Source: Dehalogenimonas etheniformans (GTDB taxonomy: Bacteria; Chloroflexota; Dehalococcoidia; Dehalococcoidales; Dehalococcoidaceae). Taken from it: a stretch of 64,000 bases of DNA. The translations under genes were made by a program, and so were the position numbers. Of this stretch, positions 27,486 through 29,156 are shown in pieces. A model generated the notes under the pieces. It was not told the DNA's origin. It saw only the letters and a list, made by a program, of their open reading frames with translations, and did no database searches. Each line of letters starts with the position of its first letter. The first letter of the stretch is position 1. Location: contig NZ_CP058566.2 of assembly GCF_014672715.2 (NCBI RefSeq), positions 1,364,001 through 1,428,000 on the forward strand. Reading direction: 5' to 3'.

Positions 27486-27510
27486 CTAATAATCCCGGCG
27501 CTGTTATAAT
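27482..27510 (+). promoter_or_regulatory. Promoter of lepB-pyrE group
   Basis: TTAACT (27482-27487), 17 bases, TATAAT (27505-27510). Transcription near 27517 leaves the AGGGAG at 27522-27527 as ribosome-binding site for the TTG at 27533, so the ATG at 27509, which overlaps the -10 box, is not the start of translation from this promoter. Confidence 0.65.
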
Positions 27511-27532
27511 GGGAAAAACTCAGGGAGACCGA

Positions 27533-28123
27533 TTGAAAGTATTCAAATCCGCCCTTCTCGAGATAGCCTATATCCTGGCAGGGGCGTTAATAATTTTCCT
27601 CCTTTTCCAGGTCACACTCCAAAACTCAATCGTCGACGGTTCCAGCATGGAACCCAACCTTATGAACGGCGATCGTTTACTGGTCAGCAAGGTAAGCTAC
27701 GTTTTCAGCGAACCGAAGCGTGGCGACATCGTGATCTTTCCTTCACCCTATAGCGACGGCAGGGAATTCATTAAACGCATCATCGGCCTGCCGGGAGAGA
27801 CGGTGCAGATCGTTTCCGGGGAAGTCCGGATCAACGGAACACTGATCGACGAACCTTATCTGGTGAATAAAGATACCAGAAGTTATCCGGCTACCGTAAT
27901 TCCAACCGGCGAATATTTCGTCATGGGTGACAACCGCCCGGTGAGTCTGGATTCCCGCCAGGGCTGGACTGTTAAACGCGCCGATATCAACGGAAAAGCC
28001 TGGCTGGTTTTTTACCCGTTCAAGAGTTTTGGATTCGCACCCAACCATAAATTTGCCGATATTGCCGCCGGCGCTGTCCTACTGCCAATTTTCATCCTTC
28101 GCCGACAGGAGAATTCTCATTAA
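27533..28123 (+). CDS. lepB: Signal peptidase I
   Basis: About 196 residues. One N-terminal helix (about 7-26) anchors the enzyme. The catalytic Ser is in G-S-S-M-E-P and the Lys in F-I-K-R-I-I-G-L-P-G-E; M-G-D-N-R near the C-terminus is box E. It removes signal peptides from exported proteins such as the lipid-free exports in this window. The TTG at 27533 with AGGGAG upstream is the better start. A short hydrophobic C-terminal stretch (A-G-A-V-L-L-P-I-F) may be a second helix. pyrE overlaps its stop codon. Confidence 0.92.
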   Translation: MKVFKSALLEIAYILAGALIIFLLFQVTLQNSIVDGSSMEPNLMNGDRLLVSKVSYVFSEPKRGDIVIFPSPYSDGREFIKRIIGLPGETVQIVSGEVRINGTLIDEPYLVNKDTRSYPATVIPTGEYFVMGDNRPVSLDSRQGWTVKRADINGKAWLVFYPFKSFGFAPNHKFADIAAGAVLLPIFILRRQENSH

Positions 28124-28685
28124 CGACATCGAAGCCCTATTCATCAAATCAGGCGCGGTCCTTAACGGACACTTCGTACTTACATCAGGTCTCCATTCTC
28201 CGGTTTATTGGGAAAAGTTCCGCATTATCGAAAACCCTGCCACGGCTGTGTCGCTATGTAATATGATCGCCGAGCACTTTAAGGGCAAAGGGATCGAACT
28301 GGTCGTCGGCCCAACTACTGGAGGCATCATCCTGGCGTTCGAAGTTGCACGCCTTATGGGATTGCCAGCAGCCTTCGCAGAAAAAGTGCCGTCCGGAGAG
28401 CGAGAATTCCGCCGGGGTTTTAAGATCAGAGCCGGCGAGAAAATCCTCGTTGTAGACGATGTGTTGACCACAGGAAAAAGCGTCCGCGAGGTTTTCGATG
28501 CTGTGGCCAAGCATAAAGGCGACATAGTCGGCGTAGGTGTCCTGGTCGATCGTTCCGATACTCCATTTGGTTTTGGCGCACCGCTGTTCAGTTGTTTGCG
28601 CGTCGCCAACATCCCTGCTTATAAACCAGAGCACTGCCCTTTGTGCCAGTCGGGACAACCGCTTACGAAGCCAGGGAGCAGCTAA
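28119..28685 (+). CDS. pyrE: Orotate phosphoribosyltransferase (AUU start)
   Basis: 188 residues if started at ATT 28119. It converts orotate and PRPP to OMP in pyrimidine synthesis. The PRPP-binding motif is V-L-V-V-D-D-V-L-T-T-G-K-S (seen as I-L-V-V-D-D-V-L-T-T-G-K-S), with G-P-T-T-G-G-I-I and a C-terminal C-P-L-C pair typical of one PyrE branch. No ATG, GTG or TTG exists near the expected N-terminus; AGGAG (28107-28111) sits 7 bases before ATT, and I-N-D-I-E-A-L-F-I-K-S-G matches family N-termini if ATT encodes Met. The alternative TTG at 28029 adds 30 residues inside lepB. Confidence 0.88.
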   Translation: MNDIEALFIKSGAVLNGHFVLTSGLHSPVYWEKFRIIENPATAVSLCNMIAEHFKGKGIELVVGPTTGGIILAFEVARLMGLPAAFAEKVPSGEREFRRGFKIRAGEKILVVDDVLTTGKSVREVFDAVAKHKGDIVGVGVLVDRSDTPFGFGAPLFSCLRVANIPAYKPEHCPLCQSGQPLTKPGSS

Positions 28686-29156
28686 ATGGGCACGGCGCTC
28701 GCCATCGCCGCCGTCATTTTCCTGGCTTTCACTATCATCACCGTCAACTATTACCTCATCCGCCGCCGTTTTGAAACACGTTTCAAAGAGTGGCAAGCCC
28801 AAGAACAAATCTACTGGCAAAATGAGGTTGAACGCACTTCCAGGCAAGCGGTAGCTCAAAGCCGGGCGGTCCTCGGCGGCAAGTTTACCGAGCAAATGGC
28901 TCCCTACCTGCCCGAATTCAAATATGATCCCACTGAAGCCCGATTCATCGGTTCGCCCATCGACTTTGTCGTTTTTCCGGGATTATCCGCCGGCGATCCC
29001 AAAGAGGTGGTGATCGTCGAGGTAAAGAGCGGCAAGAATTGCGTTCTGACTCCGTCGGAAAAAAAGATCCAGGAACTTATCGAGGACGGGATGGTACGGT
29101 GGGAGCTTATCGAGCGGCGATGTGAAGATGAAAGCAATTCTCAGGGCAATAGTTGA
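28686..29156 (+). CDS. Holliday-junction-resolvase-related endonuclease, membrane-anchored
   Basis: 156 residues. A single N-terminal helix (about 5-24) is followed by a charged coiled region and a domain with F-I-G-S-P-I-D-F-V-V-F and V-V-I-V-E-V-K-S-G-K. The D and E-V-K residues form a PD-(D/E)XK nuclease core, as in the Endonuc_Holl family. The ATG directly follows the pyrE stop. A membrane-anchored nuclease is odd for recombination; the biological role is unclear. Confidence 0.8.
   Translation: MGTALAIAAVIFLAFTIITVNYYLIRRRFETRFKEWQAQEQIYWQNEVERTSRQAVAQSRAVLGGKFTEQMAPYLPEFKYDPTEARFIGSPIDFVVFPGLSAGDPKEVVIVEVKSGKNCVLTPSEKKIQELIEDGMVRWELIERRCEDESNSQGNS

Follow-up and report, generated by a model that had tools for sequence, protein, structure and literature searches.

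The pyrE gene of Dehalogenimonas etheniformans, which encodes orotate phosphoribosyltransferase, very probably begins with AUU rather than with AUG, GUG or UUG. We put the probability at about 0.9 that its translation is initiated at position 28119 of the window (the whole stretch of 64,000 nucleotides that was analysed), where a Shine-Dalgarno (SD) sequence would place the ribosome and the initiator fMet-tRNA(CAU) would start a product of 188 amino acids. Judged by aligned loci, isoleucine-codon starts seem to be a recurrent state in this lineage, found in pyrE, infC, rplU and porC and, in the form of CUG, in purD. To a specialist, such a lineage-wide habit in core genes is more surprising than pyrE itself.

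The start site of pyrE

The window belongs to a genome of one contig with 2,068,322 bases (G000 below, with G001-G007 for the other members of its genus). The features around the pyrE start are the following.

27509..28123, + strand: lepB, signal peptidase I, 204 aa (open reading frame; TIGR02227, 149 bits; PF10502)
28107..28111, + strand: AGGAG, Shine-Dalgarno sequence of pyrE, read in the sequence, with a 7-nt spacer to ATT
28112-28118, + strand: spacer aattctc between AGGAG and the ATT of pyrE
28119..28121, + strand: probable ATT (AUU) initiation codon of pyrE, from the sequence and the relatives
28119..28685, + strand: pyrE, orotate phosphoribosyltransferase, 188 codons plus TAA (TIGR01367; PF00156)
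28121..28123, + strand: lepB stop TAA, whose first base is the third base of the pyrE start (T28121)

A sequence-only reading of this DNA had proposed the ATT start, and its position, the AGGAG, the 7-nt spacing and the T held in common with the lepB stop were all confirmed. The same reading held that ordinary starts are missing near the N-terminus; upstream in frame we indeed found only TTG codons, 30, 22 and 19 codons before the ATT (28029, 28053 and 28062), all three within lepB, while the first ordinary start downstream is a GTG at residue 44 (window 28248), beyond the conserved SGLHSPVYWEKFR block. A second in-frame ATT, at 28113-28115, lies just 1 nt from the SD. That a protein of 188 residues fits the N-termini of its family was borne out by a profile search, in which PyrE scored 170.7 bits against TIGR01367 (pyrE_Therm; cutoff 150.25), placing it in the family, with residues 3-187 aligned to positions 1-186 of the 187 in the model. 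The gene presents what characterizes an isoleucine-codon initiation site of the infC/pcnB kind, namely an SD-spaced codon at the aligned N-terminus and no usable ordinary start. No stable hairpin was found over the pyrE start, where folding did not differ from that of shuffled sequences (z 0.62 and -0.06). Directly downstream, the ATG of an Endonuc_Holl gene (PF10107, similar to archaeal resolvases; window 28686-29156, + strand) abuts the pyrE stop with no gap.

On the preferred reading, the AGGAG at its 7-nt spacing would place the 30S subunit on the AUU, which the ordinary initiator fMet-tRNA(CAU) would read, and ribosomes terminating on the overlapping lepB stop might also deliver 30S subunits to pyrE. 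We infer both that initiation actually takes place at this codon and that the 188-residue protein begins with methionine, not isoleucine. The motif by itself is not distinctive: AGGAG-N(5-9)-ATT occurs 6 times within the window against 9.7 expected, which is not above chance, so the case for the AUU start is a comparative one, and on the comparative evidence below we regard the identity of the start as well supported.

Start codons in relatives

We aligned 107 pyrE loci of the order and read the codon at the start position; it is an isoleucine codon in 19 of them (ATA in 9, ATT in 5, ATC in 5), spread over about ten families. Another 85 loci were classed as ATG, GTG or TTG, and three were ambiguous because a TTG precedes the ATA; G035 holds one further ATA pyrE. 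An SD-like match lies 5' of every one of the 19 isoleucine-codon starts, and in 9 of the 19 the stretch from the in-frame stop upstream to residue 12 contains no ATG, GTG or TTG at all. The column is identified as the pyrE start by its alternation between ATG and ATA behind related leaders in several families: ATG stands at exactly the same column in L009-L011, L018, L024, L029 and L073, and L073 reads GAGGGCGAGGTTG-ATG where L057 reads GGGGTGAGGTCA-ATA.

Two other ways of accounting for the ATT were weighed against these loci. Translation might begin at one of the upstream TTGs, giving PyrE an N-terminal extension of 19-30 residues that overlaps lepB; the codons are in frame in G000 and present in G004 as well, and the residues encoded upstream of the ATT in the pyrE frame (including ADRRILINDIEALF...) look conserved between the two. 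This conservation is only apparent, since lepB in the overlapping frame explains it, and the upstream TTGs have no SD, the TIGR01367 match begins at residue 3, and the same frame is closed five codons before the start in G005 and directly before it in G006. There, the sequence reads TAA-ATT-AAC (L005), and in G029 it reads TAG-ATA-GAT (L022), so that no start is possible upstream in either. The stops in G005 and G006 refute an upstream start for the gene family, and we consider it very improbable for G000. Alternatively, since ATT and ATG are one base apart, an original ATG might have been misread in sequencing or recently damaged by mutation. This is hardly credible, because ATT, ATC or ATA stands at the same column in independent genomes, several of them single-contig, which rules out an error, and because an ATG at 28119 would abolish the lepB stop.

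The sequence-only reading had asked whether close relatives keep the ATT. Aligned, they do carry ATT (G000, G004, G005 and G006) or ATC (G003 and G007) at this column, with ATA farther afield, and in most of the genus PyrE homology extends as far as residue 1 or 2. In G001 and G002, by contrast, an ATG lies a few codons upstream, so the AUU is missing from part of the genus; the isoleucine codon, present in 6 of its 8 members and in further families, is conserved but not universal. With the start region left out, a PyrE tree, many of whose inner branches are weakly supported, requires at least 11 changes between isoleucine-codon and ordinary starts. Beyond the order, 11 of 13 alignable pyrE loci have an ATG, GTG or TTG at most 7 codons from the aligned start, and in the remaining two the only such codon is an ATG farther away. 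A distant PyrE, of about 32-35% identity, is all that is seen in place of this type in some families of the order (G015, G052 (f6), G033 (f24), G046 (f37) and G048 (f39)).

The overlap with lepB

The overlap with lepB offers a further explanation, which we think unlikely: the lepB stop would hold T28121 in place, and the AUU would be a by-product with no role of its own. In G000, G004, G005 and G006 the T belongs both to the TAA and to the pyrE start, and replacing it by G would destroy the lepB stop; in G000 this would lengthen LepB by 14 codons. This 1-nt overlap is, however, absent in most other families. Nothing bars an ATG in G003 and G007, where pyrE has ATC and the upstream frame ends at +10 to +12, nor in L022, L025, L027, L028 and L066, where pyrE has ATA or ATT and 20 to about 190 nt separate the end of the upstream gene from the start; in relatives, this gene is called lepB-like from its end alone. 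Judging from these arrangements, the overlap can fix the T in no more than part of the genus and cannot account for the state of the order, and as a general cause it is ruled out by the other isoleucine-codon families that lack it.

The same comparison bears on the earlier suggestion that coupling to lepB could compensate for the AUU. Such coupling may operate within the genus, where start and stop overlap; with the upstream gene 20 to about 190 nt away elsewhere and many isoleucine-codon families devoid of the overlap, coupling is no general requirement.

Initiation machinery and expected expression

Examining IF3, the initiator tRNA and the anti-SD, we found nothing unusual by sequence. The 16S 3' end (GGATCACCTCCTTT, a single copy in the genome, at 260899) carries the standard anti-SD CCTCC, and thus no altered anti-SD was found there. 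The alignment of IF3 with bacterial IF3s of solved structure spans almost the whole protein. Nor did we find an initiator tRNA devoted to AUU: there are three CAU tRNAs, one of which has the initiator features C1:A72 and a GGG/CCC stem, together with an ordinary tRNA-Ile(GAU) just 3' of the 16S end (G000:261103-261179, + strand; L515). The latter was found by ARAGORN and is missing among the 45 RF00005 matches.

Initiation at the pyrE AUU may run at a lower rate than at AUG and may be sensitive to IF3. In Staphylococcus aureus reporters, AUU and AUA sites gave about 10% (up to 30%) of the AUG level (PMC13009471). Non-canonical starts are inhibited when IF3 is raised, and an SD and a short distance between stop and start favor re-initiation (PMC2268962). 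These published results make a lower, IF3-sensitive and partly lepB-coupled synthesis of PyrE plausible.

Relation to known isoleucine-codon starts

Isoleucine-codon starts are already known as a kind, and pyrE is an addition to infC, pcnB, cvfC1, ccpN and citZ. The open-access literature yielded no report of such starts for pyrE or rplU, or for Dehalococcoides, Dehalogenimonas or Dehalococcoidia. For pyrE, we know of no feedback. The infC gene, by contrast, is autoregulated by IF3 (PMC13009471); like pyrE, it has an isoleucine codon that follows an SD, lacks an ordinary start in the vicinity and is conserved in relatives, but its codon is invariant where that of pyrE alternates with ATG, GTG or TTG. 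The comparison of pyrE with infC and pcnB, drawn by the sequence-only reading, proved apt, as the infC of every one of 30 relatives starts with ATA or ATC.

The AUU start of Escherichia coli pcnB (cited in PMC13009471 and PMC4227106 from Binns and Masters 2002) also belongs to a chromosomal enzyme gene; a difference is that pyrE lies 3' of lepB and overlaps it. In S. aureus, cvfC1 (AUU) and ccpN and citZ (AUA) likewise combine an isoleucine codon with an SD, and the cvfC1 and ccpN starts are, like that of pyrE, conserved in relatives; these two have extended SD motifs, whereas pyrE here has AGGAG only (PMC13009471). The kinds of evidence differ as well: the S. aureus sites were mapped by ribosome stalling (PMC13009471) and pcnB was found by experiment to be translationally limited, whereas the AUU of pyrE is read here from sequence.

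Apparent unusual starts in other core genes

We screened 800 kb of G000 against the matching 800 kb of G004, comprising 556 ortholog pairs. Because of overlapping frames, a two-genome screen is noisy by itself. SD-spaced codons with no shared ordinary start numbered 7 for ATH against 8 for GCN and 11 for GAN, a count that fails to separate ATH from some non-start classes, and only cases conserved across a gene family were therefore accepted. About six unusual starts were well supported among the 556 sampled genes, or about 1%.

An isoleucine-codon infC start is expected from other bacteria, and infC (G000:870780, + strand; loci L108-L137), which served as the positive control, has ATA in 28 and ATC in 2 of its 30 loci. 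The rplU gene for bL21 (G000:1503093, - strand; loci L258-L287, L481 and L484) shows ATT as its aligned start codon in 29 of 30 loci of the order, mostly behind strong GGAGG-type SDs, and in 2 of 7 genomes of the class outside the order; ATG or GTG is found in one further genome of the order, G046, and in most of the rest of the phylum. For porC (G000:795300, + strand; loci L490-L513), named from its sequence as the pyruvate:ferredoxin oxidoreductase gamma subunit, ATC or ATT stands in 8 of 8 genomes of the genus, and outside it ATT in G011 and ATA in G017, G022 and G025. purD (G000:701707, - strand; loci L446-L471) has CTG in 16 of 22 readable loci of the order, ATC in G026, and TTG or ATG in others. 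A plsY-like paralogue (G000:1578630, - strand; L478-L480) is more variable, with ATA in G000 and G004 and TTG in G006; G003 and G007 have ATC or an ATG upstream.

The product of rplU is needed once per ribosome. The nearly fixed AUU of this ribosomal protein gene suggests that the codon need not be a severe bottleneck and may be less limiting in this lineage, so that the earlier view of AUU as a codon that limits expression finds partial support only. It is possible, at somewhat less than even odds, that selection on start codons is relaxed here, such that Dehalococcoidia tolerate AUU, AUC, AUA or CUG behind an SD at little cost and the pyrE start drifts near-neutrally. The repeated changes on the PyrE tree, the ATT of rplU across the order and in two genomes of other orders, the ATC, ATT or ATA of porC, the CTG of purD and the six or so cases among 556 pairs all favor this idea. 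Against it, the odd codon of infC and of rplU hardly varies, a pattern suggestive of selection and not of neutrality; IF3 and the initiator tRNA look ordinary by sequence; and AUU and AUA reached only about 10% of AUG in the S. aureus reporters (PMC13009471). Relaxed selection is compatible with initiation of pyrE at AUU 28119, as it concerns the cause of the codon and not the site. A more speculative notion, which we hold to be doubtful, is that infC, rplU, pyrE, porC and purD form a core set responding jointly to the level of IF3 or to a changed fidelity of start selection; if true, ribosome assembly, the synthesis of nucleotides and pyruvate metabolism would all be tied to the level of an initiation factor.

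Many gene finders allow only ATG, GTG and TTG, so genes with isoleucine-codon starts are given wrong N-termini or run into their neighbours. A survey of 36 genome triplets counted one switch from AUG to AUU per 61,358 ancestral AUG starts (PMC5622118). This contrasts with at least 11 changes in one gene of one order and with a ribosomal protein gene whose AUU is nearly fixed, which together make the lineage a natural test of how strictly near-cognate codons are rejected.

Further candidate isoleucine-codon starts in G000 belong to an HflX-like GTPase (882163, - strand), a short ORF (1012733, - strand) and a possible S6 gene (1022387, - strand). An ATA start for purF (G000:1314763, - strand) was rejected, as a GTG lies four codons upstream of the conserved ATA. 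This GTG follows a TATAAT by a few bases, without an SD, possibly indicating a leaderless mRNA.
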